Shown piece by piece: positions 716 to 29,986 of a stretch of 64,000 nt of DNA. The notes under the pieces are model-generated. The model worked only from the letters and a program-made list of their open reading frames with translations. It did no database searches and had not been told where the DNA came from. A program made the position numbers and the translations under genes. The DNA comes from Halorussus litoreus. Its GTDB lineage: Archaea > Halobacteriota > Halobacteria > Halobacteriales > Haladaptataceae. The number at the start of each line of letters is the position of its first letter. The first letter of the stretch is position 1. The stretch covers positions 62,001 to 126,000 of the forward strand of contig NZ_KZ859506.1 of NCBI RefSeq assembly GCF_003382685.1, read 5' to 3'.

Positions 716-835
716 GACCGAGAGTTGGAGGGCTGCGGGTAAAAAGCTGTGGCGCGACGCAGGAACAGCACCGACCCCGTTTGCCCCGGAAGTAACAACC
801 TTTGTATCGCCGCCGGGGGAAGGGTCGACCAGTCA

Positions 836-1645
836 ATGACCGCGTTCTTCGACCGCCTCGCCGACCGCATCGCCGAGACCGACAGCATCGTCTCGGTCGG
901 CCTCGACCCCGACCCGGACCGACTCCCCGACGCAGTCCGGGACGCCGACCTGCCGCGCTGGGAGTTCAACCGCCGCATCGTCGACGCCACGGCCGACCAC
1001 GCCGCCGCGTTCAAGCCCAACGCCGCGTTCTACGAGGACCCGGACGGCTGGCGGGCGCTGGAGAAGACCGCCGAATACGCCAGCGACGCCGGCGTGCCGG
1101 TGCTGCTCGACGCCAAGCGCGCCGACATCGGCAACACCTCGCGGCAGTACGCCAGCGTTCTGGACTCGGTCGACGCCATCACGCTCAACCCGTTCCTCGG
1201 TCGGGACGCGCTCGCGCCGTTCCTCGACCGCGAGGACGCGGGCTGCTTCCTGCTCTGTCGAACCTCGAACCCCGGCGGCGCGGACGTGCAGGACCTCGAA
1301 CTCGCGGACGGCGACCTCGTGTACGAGCGCGTGGCCGACCTCGCCAGCGAGTGGAGCGACGAGGGGCACGGCAACGTCGGGCTCGTGGTCGGCGCGACCA
1401 CGCCGGACGAACTCCGCGCGGTCCGCGAGCGCGTGCCGGACCTCCCGTTCCTCGTGCCGGGCGTGGGTGCGCAGGGCGGCGACGCGGAGGCCGCGGCGAC
1501 CTGCGCGACCGCGGCGAACGGCGCGGGACTGGTCAACTCCACGCGGGGCATCATCTTCGCGGGCGAAGACGAGGATCGGCCGTTCGACGAGGCCGCGGGC
1601 GAGGCGGCTCGGGACCTGAAAGAGCGACTCGACGAGTATCGCTGA
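836..1645 (+). CDS. pyrF: Orotidine 5'-phosphate decarboxylase (type 2)
   Basis: This 269-residue enzyme decarboxylates OMP to UMP, the last step of de novo pyrimidine synthesis. The start is the ATG at 836, which gives MTAFFDRLADRI, the usual N terminus. The catalytic D-x-K-x-x-D motif is present as LLDAKRADIGNTSRQYA near residue 95. SVGLDPDPDRLP near the N terminus and PGVGAQGGD near residue 210 form the nucleotide and phosphate-binding parts. The length and the GNTSRQYA segment fit the subfamily-2 (long) enzymes rather than the short bacterial type. No other pyrimidine gene is nearby. Confidence 0.95.
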   Translation: MTAFFDRLADRIAETDSIVSVGLDPDPDRLPDAVRDADLPRWEFNRRIVDATADHAAAFKPNAAFYEDPDGWRALEKTAEYASDAGVPVLLDAKRADIGNTSRQYASVLDSVDAITLNPFLGRDALAPFLDREDAGCFLLCRTSNPGGADVQDLELADGDLVYERVADLASEWSDEGHGNVGLVVGATTPDELRAVRERVPDLPFLVPGVGAQGGDAEAAATCATAANGAGLVNSTRGIIFAGEDEDRPFDEAAGEAARDLKERLDEYR

Positions 1646-1689
1646 CCGGCTTCGAAATCGGGGACGCGATTTCTGGCCTTCTGAGGGCG

Positions 1690-1860
1690 TGCGCTCGGTG
1701 GATCATCTGCCGGAATGCGCTCGGTGGATCATCTGCCGGAATGCGCTCGGTGGATCATCTGCCGGAATGCGCTCGGTGGATCATCTGCCGGAATGCGCTC
1801 GGTGGAACCTTCACTGGAAGCGCCCGGGAACCTTCTGCCAGAATGCGCCCGGTGAACCAT
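1690..1860. repeat. 26-bp tandem repeat, four perfect copies plus degenerate copies
   Basis: Four identical 26-bp units run back to back at 1690-1715, 1716-1741, 1742-1767 and 1768-1793. Each starts TGCGCTCGGTGG and ends ATCTGCCGGAA. They are followed by three decayed units to about 1860, of similar length and still showing GCGC-C/T-CGG(T/G)G..CC. The array fills the 392-bp gap between pyrF and the next gene. The unit length is not a multiple of three and there is no ribosome binding site, so it is not a coding repeat. There are no spacers, so it is not CRISPR. I see no promoter or RNA gene in the rest of this gap. Confidence 0.9.
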
Positions 1861-2037
1861 TCACGGTCTGGGCGGACGGGCTTTCTGGACGTTCCTCGAC
1901 CGGATCACTGCTGTCCAGCGGTGCCCTTCAGAGTGGGTCCGAAGAAACAACTACTCACAGGGGACCGACTCGGAACTCAACGTGCTTCCCGAGTTCTATC
2001 GACAGTCCTAATCACGACGAAGCCCAACACAAAAGTA

Positions 2038-2307
2038 GTGAGTACCGACGGAACCATCTCCGGACGGCCGATCTTCGCGGCTGGTGCCGTGATCGTCGTC
2101 TTCCTCGCCGCCGGCCTCGGCGCGATAGTCGGCGCGTCCGGGCAGGAGCGAGACGTCGCGCTCGACCTGTTCGGCGTTGTCTCGTTCGGGATGACGCCGG
2201 TCTCGATGGCGGCGTTCGGCGTGCTGTTTGCCGGCGGGACGCTGGCGCTGCTGTTCGGACTCGTCAGCGTCGCGTCGCGGCACGACGAGCCGAGTACCAG
2301 CCGGTAG
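2038..2307 (+). CDS. Small two-helix membrane protein, haloarchaeal type
   Basis: This 89-residue protein starts with GTG at 2038 (GTG AGT ACC GAC). It has two hydrophobic segments (about residues 11-32 and 52-74) joined by a short loop, and a charged C terminus, so both ends probably face the cytoplasm. The pattern resembles the short haloarchaeal membrane proteins sometimes annotated as cox-cluster proteins, but I cannot show homology. The upstream reading frame is open because of composition, so the start is chosen from where G/C-rich coding with hydrophobic content begins. No function is assigned. The neighbour downstream is an APC permease on the same strand. Confidence 0.6.
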   Translation: MSTDGTISGRPIFAAGAVIVVFLAAGLGAIVGASGQERDVALDLFGVVSFGMTPVSMAAFGVLFAGGTLALLFGLVSVASRHDEPSTSR

Positions 2308-2470
2308 ACCTGTTCGCCGATCGCGAGCCGGATCGCGGGAACGGGCGAGCCCGAAGCGAGACCCGAGCCGCGCGAAGTCCGCGACCGCTGTGAGACCCCG
2401 CGCCGGGCGACCAGCCGTGGCTCCCACGTTACCGTCAAGCTTCAAGCGTGTCAGAACCGACGGTGAGAAC

Positions 2471-3778
2471 GTGCCCGAGCAACTCGGACTCAGGGAATCG
2501 ATCTCGATAGCGCTCGGCGGGATGATCGGCGGCGGCATCTACGCCGTTCTGGGGGTCGTCGTACAGGTGAGCGGCGCGCTGGCGTGGCTCGCCTTCGCGC
2601 TCGCCGGCGTGGTTGCGGCGTGCGCGGGCTACTCGTACGTGAAGCTCAACGAACTCAGCGACGACGACGGCGGGTCGCCGACGTACATCGAGACGTTCGC
2701 GGACAGTTCGACGCTCGCAGGGATGGCCGGCTGGACGCTGTTGTTCGGCTACGTCGGCTCGATGGCGATGTACGCGTTCGCGTTTGGGAGTTACTTCACC
2801 GACATCGCCGGGGTCTCGCAGGTCGGCGGGCTCCCCCTCCGACCGGTGGTCTCCGTGTTCGCCATCGCGGGGTTCGTCGGTCTCAACGCGGTCGGCGTCG
2901 AGGAGACCGGCACCGTCGAGGTCGTGCTCGTCGTCGCCAAGGTCGCCATCCTGGCGGGGTTCGTCGTCCTCGGCCTCTACGCAGGGTTTCGCCGGGGGCA
3001 GCTCCGGACCGGCGTCTCCGGGTTGGGCGTCGGCCCGGTCATGGCGGCGGCCGTGTCGTTCGTCGCCTTCCAGGGCTGGCAGTTGCTGATGTACGATCAG
3101 GCCACCATCCGGAACTCCGCCGCAACCATCCGACGGTCGATCTACGTCGCGATACCGACCGCAGTCGCGATCTACGTCGGCGTGGCGGTCGTTACGACGA
3201 GCCTGGTGAACGTCGGGTTCGTCTCGGCGCACCCCGAGACCGCGCTCGCGGTCGCCGCGCGGCGGTTCGGTGGCCACCTCGGCTATCTCGTCGTCTCGCT
3301 GTCGGCGCTGTTCTCGACCGCGAGCGCGATCAACGCCACGCTGTTCAGCACCGCCCAGTTCTCCGAGGGGATGATCTCAGACGGACTCCTGCCCGACCGG
3401 TTCGAGACCGGCGACGGTGAGACCCCGACGAGAATCGTGTTCGTCCTCGGCGGACTGACCGCCGCGTTCACGGCGTACGGTAGCCTCCAGGGTATCACCT
3501 CGTTCGCGTCGCTCTCGTTCATCCTCGTGTTCGGCGGGATGAGCTATCTGGCGTTCCGGCAGCGCGATCACGAGGCGGTCCATCCGGCCGTTCCGGCGGT
3601 CGGCTTCGTCGGGACCGCCCTGTTCCTGCCACTGATGCTGTGGCACCTCTACACCGCCGAGCGCGGCGTGCTCTACTCGGTGCTGACGGTCGCCGTCGCA
3701 GTGCTGGCTGTCGAACTGCTGTACTTCGAGCGCGAGACCGTCGAGGAGGGCATCCGGACGGTCGGGAAGCGGGTGTAA
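2471..3778 (+). CDS. APC superfamily amino acid permease
   Basis: This 435-residue polytopic membrane protein has about 12 predicted helices. The first helix carries the APC signature G-G-M-I-G-G-G-I-Y (about residues 16-24), the unwound substrate and sodium/proton site of the LeuT fold. The likely role is secondary uptake or exchange of amino acids or similar solutes across the cytoplasmic membrane. I chose the GTG at 2471 because it places the first helix about 12 residues from the N terminus. A GTG at 2417 is the alternative and would add 18 hydrophilic residues. It converges with the TRIC channel gene, whose stop lies 1 bp beyond its own. Confidence 0.85.
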   Translation: MPEQLGLRESISIALGGMIGGGIYAVLGVVVQVSGALAWLAFALAGVVAACAGYSYVKLNELSDDDGGSPTYIETFADSSTLAGMAGWTLLFGYVGSMAMYAFAFGSYFTDIAGVSQVGGLPLRPVVSVFAIAGFVGLNAVGVEETGTVEVVLVVAKVAILAGFVVLGLYAGFRRGQLRTGVSGLGVGPVMAAAVSFVAFQGWQLLMYDQATIRNSAATIRRSIYVAIPTAVAIYVGVAVVTTSLVNVGFVSAHPETALAVAARRFGGHLGYLVVSLSALFSTASAINATLFSTAQFSEGMISDGLLPDRFETGDGETPTRIVFVLGGLTAAFTAYGSLQGITSFASLSFILVFGGMSYLAFRQRDHEAVHPAVPAVGFVGTALFLPLMLWHLYTAERGVLYSVLTVAVAVLAVELLYFERETVEEGIRTVGKRV

Positions 3779-8421: not shown

Positions 8422-8729
8422 TCAGACCCTCCGCGACCGCGTCGCTCCGAGCATCGCGTAGCCGAGCCCCATCGCGAACCGGTAGAGCATGCGAACTCGA
8501 ACATGACGACGACCACGCCGCCGAGTAGATAGACGGTCCTGATGTGGCCTTCGAGGCCGAGCGTGGCGAGGAGCCAGAAGATGGACGCTCCGGTCGCGAC
8601 CAGCACCGGAACCGTGACGACTACGCAGATGGCGGCGTAGATGGCGACGAGGACCAACTCCCGGGCGTAGGCGACCGACCGGTCGAATGACTGGCGTGCG
8701 AGTCTCGCAACTGTCCTCGAAACCTTCAT
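8422..8729 (-). pseudogene. Small membrane protein gene with an apparent frameshift near its 3' end
   Basis: Reading from the ATG at 8729, about 79 codons give a membrane protein with two helices (MKVSRTVARLARQSF... ending VYLLGGVVVVMFEF). Around 8490-8495 the G/C-rich codon pattern moves to another frame, which opens with ATG at 8490 and reads MLYRFAMGLGYAMLGATRSR before a TGA at 8422. The original frame instead runs on with poor codon choice, antisense to the small gene at 8199-8399. A one-base indel (mutation or sequencing error) best explains this. A short overlapping second gene is the alternative. A TATA-like TTTATACTT about 25-30 bp upstream of 8729 suggests a leaderless transcript. 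Confidence 0.6.
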
Positions 8730-26273: not shown

Positions 26274-26906
26274 TTAGACGAAACTGCCGAGTCCGGTCTG
26301 CTCCTGGCCGGTCTTGACCTCCTCCCACGACACGTCGAGGGCTTCGAGGATGCGCTCGATGGGTCCCTTGAGGGTCTTGTCGAGCATCCGGTCCCAGTCG
26401 ACGTCGAACTCCTCGGGGATCTGGTCGGCGAACTCGAAGCAGATCACGTCCGGTTCGCGCTTGAACTCGCAGTAGAGTCGGTCCTCCTTCGAATTGCCGC
26501 TCGGGTCGAAGCCGCGCTCGTTCTCCATCCGCTGCCAGAAGTCCGGGTGGACCCCGTCGAGGTAGAGGCGCTTTGGCTTGCTCCCGCGCTGGAAGTTGGT
26601 CCCCAGCAGGAGGTTGGCGTACTTCGCGCCACGGACCTGCGCGGTGTCGGTGTCGTAGTTGTCGAGGCGCTTGCCGATGCCGCCGGGGATGCCCACGTCG
26701 TCGAGGTTCACGTTCCCGCGCTGGTAGTCTTCGATGACTTCGTGGACGTACTGCTCGACGTCCGCCAACTCCTCGCCGTGGACGATCATCTCGATGACGC
26801 GCTTCTGGACCTCCTTGGTGATGGGCGCAATGTCCGAGCGCTTGTACTCGAACCCGGTGATGTCGACTTCCGGCGGGCGCAGTATCGTTCCTGGTAGTTC
26901 ATTCAT
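26274..26906 (-). CDS. DNA polymerase family B, C-terminal (thumb) part, separate frame
   Basis: This 210-residue protein equals the C-terminal end of haloarchaeal replicative polymerase B. From DITGFEYKRSDIAPITKEV it follows the family continuously (GNVNLDDVGIPGGIGKRLDN, GAKYANLLLGTNFQRGSK) to the terminal QTGLGSFV. That tail resembles a PCNA-interacting Q-x-x-L-x-x-F box. The first 14 residues (MNELPGTILRPPEV) replace the family's usual HIVW(K)xGxDVDxI segment. It carries no catalytic residues. The ATG at 26906 overlaps the stop of the homing-endonuclease gene by 8 bp, so it is probably translated by coupling. It presumably pairs with the 738-residue part encoded at 27770-29986. Confidence 0.9.
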   Translation of the reverse strand: MNELPGTILRPPEVDITGFEYKRSDIAPITKEVQKRVIEMIVHGEELADVEQYVHEVIEDYQRGNVNLDDVGIPGGIGKRLDNYDTDTAQVRGAKYANLLLGTNFQRGSKPKRLYLDGVHPDFWQRMENERGFDPSGNSKEDRLYCEFKREPDVICFEFADQIPEEFDVDWDRMLDKTLKGPIERILEALDVSWEEVKTGQEQTGLGSFV

Positions 26907-27768
26907 CGTCTATCAACTCCAGTAGTTCATCTCGTCGGTCCCACGGAATGTGGATATCACAGGGAATCTTTTCTCCAACCACGATGTACGTGTACGACGG
27001 GAATTCACTTGTGAAACGCTCTGCTTTTCGAATAGAACGTTCGTTCGACCAGCCCTTAACTTCGATGATACATGTCTCAACGACAAAATCAGGGTAATAA
27101 GAGCCTATGGATAGTTCGAACTCCAGTTCGTAGTCGTATTGAATGCCCTGTTGTACTAACAGCCGACCGATTTCCTCTTCCCAACTTGATCTCACCTTGT
27201 GGGACAACTCGTCGACTTCGTAAGGCGATGGATACGTCGGTTCTCTTCCTTTCAAACTTTCTGATAGAGCTTGACTATACATGTCTGTCTGCATATAGGA
27301 CCGGTCCATGTTAGAGGACGACTCTGAAATCGCTTTCCGGTGGTCTTTACTTATTTCGTTCCCAGTATTCTTTATCGATATTTTCCGCTTCGCTTCTTCG
27401 CTCATCGTACGACCAGTGTTTGCCTGACGAATTTTCTCCCGAACGGCTTGTCGTTTTGCTGGATTGGTTTCGCCAGCAAACTGGTCGGCGACCTCGTGGC
27501 GTTTCATCGGATTGTTCTCGCCGGTAACGGACTCACGGTGTGTCCGAGTGTCGACAATTTCGTCCACCATGTCTGACGACAGCCACTCGTACTCCTCTGC
27601 GATGGCATAACATCCCCAGCCATACGTGTATTTGTCTTGGATTTCCGAGCTATATTGTTGCTCGACCCACTCGACGGGATCGCAATCGTGGCTCGCTCGA
27701 AAGTGCATCACCTGTAGCTTCGATAGCACTTTGCCACAACCTTCGACAGGACACTGAAATTTGGTCAT
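26899..27768 (-). CDS. NUMOD3 / PD-(D/E)xK-type homing endonuclease inserted in the polymerase gene
   Basis: This 289-residue protein has a possible zinc finger (C6, C11, H22, H27) and NUMOD3-like DNA-binding repeats at about 83-155 (ENNPMKRHEVADQFAGETNP, SEEAKRKIS, SKDHRKAIS). A C-terminal Vsr/PD-(D/E)xK nuclease core follows: SSWEEEIGRLL with E197, YYPDFVV with D227 and IEVKGW with E236 and K238. Such proteins cut an allele lacking the insertion and are copied in by repair. By my count a sample stretch (27301-27360) is 47% GC, well below flanking genes. The ATG at 27768 is 1 bp after the polymerase stop codon, and the end overlaps the thumb gene. Confidence 0.85.
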   Translation of the reverse strand: MTKFQCPVEGCGKVLSKLQVMHFRASHDCDPVEWVEQQYSSEIQDKYTYGWGCYAIAEEYEWLSSDMVDEIVDTRTHRESVTGENNPMKRHEVADQFAGETNPAKRQAVREKIRQANTGRTMSEEAKRKISIKNTGNEISKDHRKAISESSSNMDRSYMQTDMYSQALSESLKGREPTYPSPYEVDELSHKVRSSWEEEIGRLLVQQGIQYDYELEFELSIGSYYPDFVVETCIIEVKGWSNERSIRKAERFTSEFPSYTYIVVGEKIPCDIHIPWDRRDELLELIDDE

Positions 27769-27769
27769 T

Positions 27770-29986
27770 TTATCTAATCCAGCTTTTCAGTCCTGCGTAA
27801 CGCTTTTTCGTGCCCGCTTGGAAGAAGCGTCGATAGAGTTTCTCGAACTCGATCTCAAAGCGATGTTCAGTTGCATTCAACCGCTCTTCCGCAAAGGCGT
27901 CGTACGACTCGTTGATCTGTTTCTCTAATTCGAACCCTTTGTTGATACTTGCCACGATGGTTTTTAACTCCTCGGGGTCCATCTCTGGGTAGTTCTCTTC
28001 CAATTCATTTGTCAAACCGGCGTTATCCTCCACGTCCTCTGGGCCTATTTGACCGAATTCTAACATGACGGAGTCGGTGTCGCCATATATCACGTCGTAG
28101 CCGAAATCGGTGACCGTCTCCTCCGTGTAGTTGATGACCTCCCGGCCGGTCGCCGTGACGGCCGCCGCGTTGTCCTTGTCGTAGAGTCGGAAGCGATCCC
28201 ATCCCGACACCCCATATAAAGAATTCATCACGACTTTGACAGAAGCTTGCTGGTTGTCGTAGCGGTCGTACGGCTCCGTTCCGGGTTCGTGCTGGTCGCG
28301 CAGGGTCTTCTTCTCCTCGCGCTCGGTCAACAGCTCGTCGATCATCTCCCGCATCATCCCCGCAGGCTCCGTCTTGAAGTGCTGGCCCGTCGGGGTGCGG
28401 TAGGTCTCGCCGTCGTACTCGTCGGGGTCGACCTTGGTCTCGGGAGAGGCGTTGACCGTCCACATGCACATCGGGTAGAGCGACTTCAGGTCGAGCACCG
28501 AGACGTTCTCGCGGACGCCCGTGATGGGTTCGAAGACCGCGCCGCCCTCGAACTCCTCGCCGGACTCGACGGTCCCCTTCGAGGGGAGCGCGAACTCGCC
28601 GTAGGCCTTGTGGAGCACGTACATGTCGACCGCGTCGCCCGCGGTCGGGGCGTCTTCGAGCTTGCAGCCGACGAACGACGCCACCTCCTCGAAGAAGGCG
28701 ACGATGTCCTGCTTGCGGTCGAGTTCGACGCACAGCTCCACGTCCCGGAGGTTGTACTCCAGCAGGCGCTCGGGGTCGTCCTCCCAGAGGTCGCCGATGT
28801 CGCCGCTGTAGCGTTCCTTGCCCACGCCGAGTTCGACCTCGCCGACCGCGTCGAGCCTGTAGGACTCCAGTTCGGTGCGCTGGGTGCTCTTGTACGCCCG
28901 TAGCAGGTCGAAGACGACGCGGCCCTTGACGTCGGGGCCGTTCCAGTCCGAGCGCCAGACCTCGTTCACGCGCGACAGCTTGTCGATGTCCAGATCGTAG
29001 TCGTGGTGAGGTCCCTGAAGCTCCTCCATCCGGTCGAGGAGGTAGGGGGCGTCGAAGTCCGCGAAGTTCCAGCCCGTGAGGATGTCCGGGTCAGTCTCTC
29101 GGATGTACTCCACGAACGATTCGAGCATCTCCTCCTCGGACTCGAACACCCGGAGGTCGGCCTCGAAGTCGTCCTCGATGGGGTCGTAGCGCTCCAGCGC
29201 CGCGGGACCGTCGACGCCGTCTGGCGACTGGTAGAGCCAGTTGACGTACTCGTCGCGGTACGAGTCGTGGGAGGTGAGACAGACGATTTTCTCCTCGCCG
29301 TCCTCGGGGAACCCCTGCCGGTCGTCGACCTCGATGTCGAAGGTGTTGACTCGCGGCGTGACGTTCGACTCGACCGGTTCGATCTCCTCGTGGGGAACGT
29401 GGATGTCGCCGTCGTCGGCGCGGCGCTCGGGCACCCGGACGCCACTCTTGATGTCCTTGTCGATGAGGAGCCGGTTCGGGAACAGGATGTCGGCCTCGTA
29501 GTGGTCGAACTCGTCGCGGACCTGCCCGACGTCGCGGGGCGTCCGACCGATGATCTTGACCAGTCGCTCGCCACGGATGGACTCGAAGGGCTCGCCGTTC
29601 TCGTCGGTCTCGCGGTAGTCGATCAGCCCGTCGTACTGGGCGATGCGCTCGTCGTCCACGGTCCCGACGGGCGCGTAGAAGTACGGCTCGAACCCGTGGA
29701 CGTGGACGTGTTCGAGTTCTTGGTCCTCGGTGCGCCCGAACACGTGGACGACGGGCTCCTCGTCGTCGCCCGATCCCTCGACGGTGTAGTCGACCTGCAC
29801 CACCGACAGCTCCACCTCGCCGTCGGCGTCTGGCAGCCAGTCGGCGGCGTCGACCACGGAAGCGGCGGGCTGGTTGTCGCCGCCGGCGACGGCCTGGGCC
29901 TCGGCTTCGACGTCGCGGTCGGCGTCCCCGCCCTCCGAAAAGTCGGAGAGGTCGAACTGGCGCTCCTCGGACCCCGAATTGCTCAT
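27770..29986 (-). CDS. DNA polymerase family B, N-terminal exonuclease/palm part, split gene
   Basis: This 738-residue protein is the replicative polymerase up to the palm-thumb junction. The proofreading motifs are NTFDIE (D217, E219), WNFADFD near 306 and YNLRDVE (Y411, D415). The polymerase motifs are DLKSLYP (D499), KVVMNSLYG (K585-G592) and YGDTDS (634-639), then KKRY at 727-730. It stops with the unrelated LKSWIR after RYAG, where intact homologues continue for about 220 residues; that remainder is encoded at 26274-26906. The last 500 bp are patchily AT-richer (27/60 GC at 27961-28020, 36/60 at 28321-28380). The start at 29986 has TTTTATCC 25-30 bp upstream, fitting a leaderless mRNA. 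Confidence 0.95.
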   Translation of the reverse strand: MSNSGSEERQFDLSDFSEGGDADRDVEAEAQAVAGGDNQPAASVVDAADWLPDADGEVELSVVQVDYTVEGSGDDEEPVVHVFGRTEDQELEHVHVHGFEPYFYAPVGTVDDERIAQYDGLIDYRETDENGEPFESIRGERLVKIIGRTPRDVGQVRDEFDHYEADILFPNRLLIDKDIKSGVRVPERRADDGDIHVPHEEIEPVESNVTPRVNTFDIEVDDRQGFPEDGEEKIVCLTSHDSYRDEYVNWLYQSPDGVDGPAALERYDPIEDDFEADLRVFESEEEMLESFVEYIRETDPDILTGWNFADFDAPYLLDRMEELQGPHHDYDLDIDKLSRVNEVWRSDWNGPDVKGRVVFDLLRAYKSTQRTELESYRLDAVGEVELGVGKERYSGDIGDLWEDDPERLLEYNLRDVELCVELDRKQDIVAFFEEVASFVGCKLEDAPTAGDAVDMYVLHKAYGEFALPSKGTVESGEEFEGGAVFEPITGVRENVSVLDLKSLYPMCMWTVNASPETKVDPDEYDGETYRTPTGQHFKTEPAGMMREMIDELLTEREEKKTLRDQHEPGTEPYDRYDNQQASVKVVMNSLYGVSGWDRFRLYDKDNAAAVTATGREVINYTEETVTDFGYDVIYGDTDSVMLEFGQIGPEDVEDNAGLTNELEENYPEMDPEELKTIVASINKGFELEKQINESYDAFAEERLNATEHRFEIEFEKLYRRFFQAGTKKRYAGLKSWIR

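Follow-up and report, generated by a model that had tools for sequence, protein, structure and literature searches.

The split polB3 locus

The DNA analysed here is a stretch of 64,000 nt (the window) from Halorussus litoreus (assembly GCF_003382685.1, contig NZ_KZ859506.1, positions 62,001–126,000 of the forward strand; genome G000 in our set), in which the gene for the replicative B-family DNA polymerase, polB3, lies in two pieces on either side of a putative homing endonuclease gene (table 1). The palm frame, i.e. the first piece, ends KKRYAGLKSWIR (KKRYAG-LKSWIR) at a TAA stop codon, the endonuclease ATG (27768) lies 1 nt past this stop, and the endonuclease stop overlaps the start of the thumb frame by 8 nt. 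An earlier reading of this DNA, the original prediction, had given these borders exactly, and the exonuclease and polymerase motifs that it placed in the first frame are borne out by the profile searches. Exonuclease and polymerase motifs including YGDTDS, a thumb and the native locus identify the gene as the replicative PolB3, and in the window, as in G386 and Salinibaculum sp. KK48 (two of the genomes described below), polB is followed by a sufC-type gene.

Intact genes of the family read KKRYAGHIVWKEGKDVDDIDITGF, with minor variants, at the junction of palm and thumb, and the part missing from the split gene is therefore the hinge hairpin, which in a sequence alignment to solved archaeal PolBs is a short segment that follows the last palm strand (KKKYA in KOD) and precedes the thumb. 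About 12–13 conserved junction residues are replaced, in agreement with the roughly 13 originally counted as absent. All 27 further genomes of the family that were searched contain a match to the thumb, and the window thumb is 82–88% identical to the thumbs of nearly all intact PolBs of the same genus. Domains were assigned by Pfam and NCBIfam profile searches and introns were sought with Rfam; AlphaFold confidence (mean predicted local distance difference test score 46.9 for the endonuclease and 51.3 for the palm) was too low for use.

Table 1. The split polB3 locus, its sequence features (positions in the window) and further PolB-family frames of the same genome.
Feature	Position	Strand	Evidence or remark
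polB3 piece 1: N-terminal, exonuclease, palm and fingers, 738 aa	27770..29986	-	DNA_pol_B 1.6e-35, exo1 4.7e-25
Imported tract, last ~103 palm codons	27770..28081	-	GC content at third codon positions (GC3) 0.61 vs 0.92 upstream; long-form loop after YGDTDS
New C-terminal tail LKSWIR, in place of strand HIVWKEG	27773..27790	-	comparison of six split alleles
Free-standing homing endonuclease gene (putative), 289 aa, GC 48%	26899..27768	-	
N-terminal C2H2-like zinc-finger-type motif	27688..27753	-	motif reading; no Pfam hit above cut-off
NUMOD3 motif (best stretch)	27358..27414	-	20.3 bits
PD-(D/E)xK-type catalytic motif PDFVVETCIIEVKG	27052..27093	-	motif reading; D227, E236, K238 invariant
Shine–Dalgarno-like GGAG within last endonuclease codons, 5' of thumb ATG	26917..26920	-	
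Overlap of endonuclease stop and thumb start, 8 nt	26899..26906	-	
New thumb head MNELPGTILRPP, kept in six alleles	26871..26906	-	host-type sequence back at ~codon 15
polB3 piece 2: thumb and C-terminus, 210 aa	26274..26906 (ATG at 26906)	-	C-terminal PolB segment in profile search
PolB2-type open reading frames of G000 (L002, L003, L004)	contigs C17, C7, C2		

Recurrence of the split in other haloarchaea

About 500 haloarchaeal genomes, searched with the endonuclease or the thumb as query, contain at least six split polB alleles: that of the window and those of G400, Salinibaculum sp. KK48 (an isolate with a complete chromosome, NZ_CP129992.1, taken as G468), G454 (two contigs, 99% complete), G414 and G386. 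In the class-wide thumb search, whose count is one among the matches listed and may have missed splits free of an endonuclease, G400 and G386 have a separate thumb frame of about 208 codons that matches from residue 2 instead of residue 13; the endonuclease was found in G400, and later searches added KK48, G454 and G414. Split residue and architecture are identical in the window and the five further haloarchaea. Full-length endonucleases occupy this identical site in four genera, and genomes of the same genus carry intact polB genes with the site empty, i.e. the uninterrupted allele that the original prediction had proposed to look for in relatives does exist.

The new ends created by the split are conserved as well. 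Palm frames end LKSWIR in the window, LKIWLQ in G400 and G414, SKIWMR in KK48 and G386 and SKIWMG in G454, which gives the consensus [LS]K[IS]W[ILM][RQG] before the stop. Thumb frames begin MNELPGTILRPPEVDITGF in the window, MSKELPGTFLNPPEVDITGF in G400, MSKELPGTFLNPPEIDITGF in G414, MNDEIPGTFLSPPEIDITGF in KK48, MTEQLRGTFLSPPEIDITGF in G454 and M(M)GDEFPGVFLSPPEIDITGF in G386, and tails and heads together stand in for HIVWKEGKDVDDI of the intact genes. Since both are kept although the other full-length endonucleases are only 60–63% identical to that of the window, they constitute a conserved new C-terminus of the palm and N-terminus of the thumb, which presumably are functional, and the description of LKSWIR as an alien tail has to be abandoned.

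The endonuclease and its relatives

The assignment of the endonuclease to a NUMOD3/PD-(D/E)xK type holds with one qualification: both motifs can be seen, and the NUMOD3 match (20.3 bits, E 5e-4, in two stretches) falls just under the curated cut-off of 20.4. The D...E-x-K motif reads YYPDFVVETCIIEVKG in the window, and D-x8-E-x-K with its nuclease residues D, E and K is invariant in the four full-length copies (window, G400, KK48 and G454), as are C6, C11, H22 and H27 of the zinc-finger-type motif; it is this catalytic motif, and not a domain match above cut-off, that suggests the PD-(D/E)xK class.

The window endonuclease is of the free-standing type and has no splicing domain. Free-standing relatives (36–38% identity over the aligned part) lie directly 3' of a class II ribonucleotide reductase gene in other haloarchaea, and a related NUMOD3/PD-(D/E)xK-type nuclease domain occurs in an intein of the replication factor C (RFC) small subunit (L006 of G015, 733–3204). 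As to a vector between genera, viral contigs, plasmids and phages searched for close relatives of the endonuclease yielded distant ones only, and the split thumb head has no match in the viral DNA searched.

The reductase-linked relatives (L134–L136 in G276, G131 and G323) represent three genera; that the reductase beside them might be split too was rejected, the protein being apparently intact in two of the three (1037 and 1036 aa). Domains like the RFC-intein nuclease are found in frames of about 760–960 aa in many haloarchaea. Also rejected was a derivation of HIPWDRRDEL, at the endonuclease C-terminus, from the host hinge HIVWKEG, as similar sequence is present elsewhere in the nuclease family.

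Imported tracts around the insertion

In comparison with G026 of the same genus, the window palm shows mostly 80–100% amino acid identity up to about YGDTDS and then about 60–75% over the last ~103 codons, with 90% in the final and most conserved stretch of this imported tract; the long-form loop is common to all split alleles and present in some intact genes too, and from about codon 15 the thumb is of host type. A second lineage shows a similar pattern: G414 and its unsplit sister G415 share 93–100% nucleotide identity in palm codons 371–495, 51–84% in the last ~230 palm codons and 96% again from nt 40 of the thumb. In both lineages the downstream border of the tract lies where the intact sequence resumes (DITGF). 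Foreign tracts in two lineages point to spread by homing, being the footprint expected if a break in the intact hinge is repaired off a split donor. The polB of G415 (L107) is otherwise intact and carries a thumb frameshift (~1397–1833) in a fragmented assembly, which is probably a sequencing error.

Decay of the endonuclease and the bridging frame

Four of the six split alleles have a full-length endonuclease; in G414 and G386, both of which have kept the split, it is dead. At this locus G414 is otherwise almost identical to G400 (thumb 98%), and an exact in-frame deletion of 618 nt leaves it with 83 codons, in which residues 1–28 are fused to about 235–289 and most of the nuclease is gone. 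The remnant in G386 comprises just 27 codons, MLVFPVSGYKKEL-WNQRQKFLEVLNDG; the resemblance of its second half to the endonuclease C-terminus is equalled in at most 1 of 5000 shuffles and that of its first half to the N-terminus, by comparison with KK48, in 6 of 5000 (0 of 2000 for the DNA).

Whatever the state of the nuclease, all six alleles retain a frame that bridges palm and thumb. It starts no more than 7 nt from the palm stop (in G454 a start within the palm is also possible) and reaches 8–11 nt into the thumb frame before its own stop, the second of two adjacent ATGs in G386 again giving an overlap of 8 nt. About 8 nt 5' of the thumb ATG, in the endonuclease codons for LEV, stands GGAGGT in the other five alleles and GGAG in the window. 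Palm-to-thumb distances in the six alleles are 863, 864, 80, 246, 866 and 867 nt (modulo 3: 2, 0, 2, 0, 2, 0). Where two genes of Haloferax volcanii overlap, translation of the second depends strictly on the first, and Shine–Dalgarno motifs have a role in reinitiation and none in de novo initiation (PMC6728339); an intergenic distance of 22–23 nt abolishes coupling, and coupled pairs are enriched for subunits of heteromeric complexes (PMC10666635). With 80 nt between palm stop and thumb start in G386, coupling would fail without the 27-codon frame. The bridge may be under selection, a view that gains from the retention of both its ends and of the overlaps.

Selection on both pieces and other polymerases

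Ratios of nonsynonymous to synonymous substitution rates (dN/dS, Nei–Gojobori method) in pairs of split alleles are 0.12–0.32 for the palm and 0.10–0.34 for the thumb, compared with 0.05–0.35 in intact pairs, and the G400/G414 thumbs give 0.055; many dS values are high, which makes these ratios rough, and for the endonuclease dS is saturated in all pairs but one. G415 was dropped as a partner of G400 because it is fragmented and has the thumb frameshift, and misaligned codons inflate the ratio. Both pieces are under ordinary purifying selection without a sign of relaxed constraint.

A search for a second polB, also proposed originally, finds three more PolB-family open reading frames in the window genome (714–749 aa), all of the PolB2 type and with HGIVDS in place of YGDTDS as motif C. 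This HGIVDS is the pattern of inactivated archaeal PolB2, and L004, one of the three, adjoins a gene for an Orc1/Cdc6-like ATPase. The thumb query matches only the split locus in this genome, i.e. no second intact PolB3 was found, and in G454 no PolB other than the split one was found. KK48 has an intact PolB also on a 560-kb plasmid (L116, NZ_CP129994.1:188643–191672), and the window genome encodes the large subunit of PolD. Of the two outcomes originally envisaged, reliance on another polymerase is not favoured, the other PolBs of the window genome being of the PolB2 type, though PolD is present. A two-subunit PolB, the other outcome, is strongly supported by the split in six genomes, the conserved tails, the purifying selection, the persistence of the split beyond the endonuclease and the lack of any other intact PolB3 in the window genome and G454.

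Probable origin and maintenance of a two-piece polymerase

We consider it very probable that a free-standing homing endonuclease fissioned polB, that palm and thumb form a heterodimer and that the thumb is made by termination–reinitiation through the bridging frame. An endonuclease gene of the NUMOD3/PD-(D/E)xK type would have entered polB3 at the palm/thumb hinge, displacing the hinge hairpin and supplying each half with its own stop or start. Its product would cut the intact hinge in other genera, where repair would copy the endonuclease gene together with flanking polB. Palm and thumb would be two polypeptides that assemble into a working polymerase, with ribosomes passing from the palm stop over the bridging frame to the thumb start. 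If the thumb is reached by reinitiation in this manner, the survivors of endonuclease decay would be deletions that keep both ends in frame and leave a short relay frame. From the split, the conserved tails, the selection, the imported tracts and the decay states, all established by the sequences, we infer homing activity, a heterodimer and translational coupling. The split is real and recurrent and most likely functional, amounting to a two-subunit PolB of a selfish gene's making, whose pieces are probably linked by translational coupling across the endonuclease frame or what is left of it. A more far-reaching combination, in which fission by the selfish gene is irreversible, the dead endonuclease frame (27 or 83 codons) is an obligate relay to the thumb and the split is contagious between genera via homing, seems to us evenly poised between true and false.

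Several points weigh against this explanation. The whole case is built on sequence comparison, and three of the alleles (G386, G400 and G414) come from fragmented assemblies, G400 and G414 being metagenome-assembled genomes. Part of the divergence of G415 from G414 may stem from inteins that lie elsewhere in the polB of G415, and the split gene of KK48 might be dispensable given the PolB on the plasmid. Finally, two deletions would both be in frame by chance in 1 of 9 cases, which alone is weak evidence of selection on the bridge.

Could the pieces nevertheless be rejoined into a full-length polymerase, by an RNA intron, a split intein, or ribosomal bypass or frameshifting? Mobile endonucleases of polB mostly reside in inteins, as does the related nuclease domain in RFC, yet there is no Rfam intron at the locus up to an E value of 5, neither intein splicing blocks (whose absence had been noted originally) nor a continuous frame are seen, both junctions carry stops, and the endonuclease has a zinc-finger-like N-terminus. 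Moreover, no sequence between the pieces codes for the hinge residues HIVWKEGKDVDD, the palm-to-thumb distances allow no common frame relation, and conservation at the protein level runs through each tail to its stop and through each head from its ATG, stop and start being kept in six of six alleles, all of which makes rejoining highly improbable. An artefact of sequencing or assembly, for which the draft or metagenomic status of several genomes might speak, has a negligible probability and is already refuted for the set of alleles, the same architecture being present in the complete isolate chromosome of KK48 and the two-contig genome of G454 with endonucleases that are about 37–40% diverged.

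A different proposal would be that the split gene is a dying pseudogene and that replication is left to PolD and other PolBs, as in Thermococcus and Methanococcus, where PolB is dispensable; deletion of PolB is possible in some euryarchaea (PMC7776575). The PolD subunit in the window genome and the plasmid-borne PolB of KK48 would fit, but neither piece has a dN/dS above that of intact genes, the frames are open across genera, the new tails are conserved, G454 has no other PolB, and PolB is essential in the haloarchaeon tested, Halobacterium NRC-1, and reported to be so for H. volcanii (PMC7776575); a pseudogene is hardly to be expected. Somewhat less remote, but still unlikely, is a split that arose without the endonuclease, e.g. 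by faulty loss of an intein, and was invaded later. This order has been considered for gp43 of phage 25 against that of 44RR (PMC2988022), and intein loss has been proposed for the Methanobacteriales (PMC4104785). Against it, both haloarchaeal alleles without a full endonuclease (G414 and G386) keep remnants of it, which implies that all six once had one, no intein is found at the split site among the intact genes examined, and the endonuclease resembles free-standing copies.

Relation to known split genes

Split haloarchaeal polB has the sequence features of genes-in-pieces: two frames flank an endonuclease gene without an intron or intein, and both halves are under purifying selection. In NrdA of Aeromonas phage Aeh1, split by insertion of mobE (Friedrich et al. 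2007, as cited in PMC2988022), a free-standing endonuclease gene likewise divides an essential nucleotide or replication gene into two frames, and the pieces form an active enzyme; according to the same account, this is a phage gene and the endonuclease is of the HNH family, in contrast to haloarchaeal polB. The gene for the large topoisomerase subunit of T4, split by mobA (PMC2988022), is similarly a case of endonuclease-associated fission of a replication protein into separate subunits, again from a phage and with an HNH enzyme. A further case is gp43 of phages 25 and 44RR, a B-family polymerase whose two polypeptides co-purify and have polymerase activity (2010, as cited in PMC2988022); a Seg-type endonuclease lies between the halves in phage 25 and none in 44RR, and, as far as that account goes, this viral polymerase differs from the haloarchaeal one in having an unrelated endonuclease that may have invaded an existing split. 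PolB3 of Methanothermobacter also consists naturally of two polypeptides (Kelman et al. 1999, as cited in PMC7776575 and PMC4104785), which has been ascribed to faulty intein excision (PMC4104785). It is a cellular archaeal PolB3 likewise but a separate evolutionary event, and these accounts describe no endonuclease between its halves. The inteins of haloarchaeal polB are homing-endonuclease parasites of the very same gene, which splice and restore the host protein, whereas the window element has no splicing domain and the protein stays in two. For Aeh1 NrdA, we know of no decay series of the endonuclease in which a relay frame persists.

The original prediction had regarded fission by a selfish gene as new. 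The principle itself is known from T4-like phages, a B-type polymerase included, and no report of an endonuclease-made fission of a cellular replicative polymerase was found in the open-licence articles searched; what looks new is that an essential cellular polymerase is affected, that the split has spread between genera and that it survives the death of the endonuclease, with a relay frame.

Multi-subunit origins are usually argued after the fact. Here, all stages are extant, i.e. the intact gene, the split with a live endonuclease, the split with a dead one and a 27-codon scar, and the route by constructive neutral evolution to a replicative polymerase of two subunits becomes directly testable, with Salinibaculum sp. 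KK48 as a sequenced isolate. The locus illustrates that a free-standing endonuclease gene can be tolerated in a chromosomal replication gene without splicing, offers a natural test case for termination–reinitiation in haloarchaea and provides naturally functional split points that could be useful for split-polymerase design. Should the relay indeed be obligate, a parasite remnant of 27 or 83 codons would have become a necessary part of the expression of an essential polymerase.

Further observations on haloarchaeal polB genes

At the polB motif A site, G400 carries an intein (L071) and the near-identical G414 (L106) has none, and intein and endonuclease states both differ between these close relatives. 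The window palm shows a second, smaller dip in GC3 at ~28187–28306 (palm codons 561–600) around NSLYG, a site at which other haloarchaeal polB genes carry an intein; this dip is possibly the scar of a lost intein. In G022 (L077), of the same genus as the window genome, the thumb is more diverged (67%, around 7517), and the last 33 PolB residues occur a second time about 900 bp downstream (8434–8535), which looks like a rearranged 3' end of polB.

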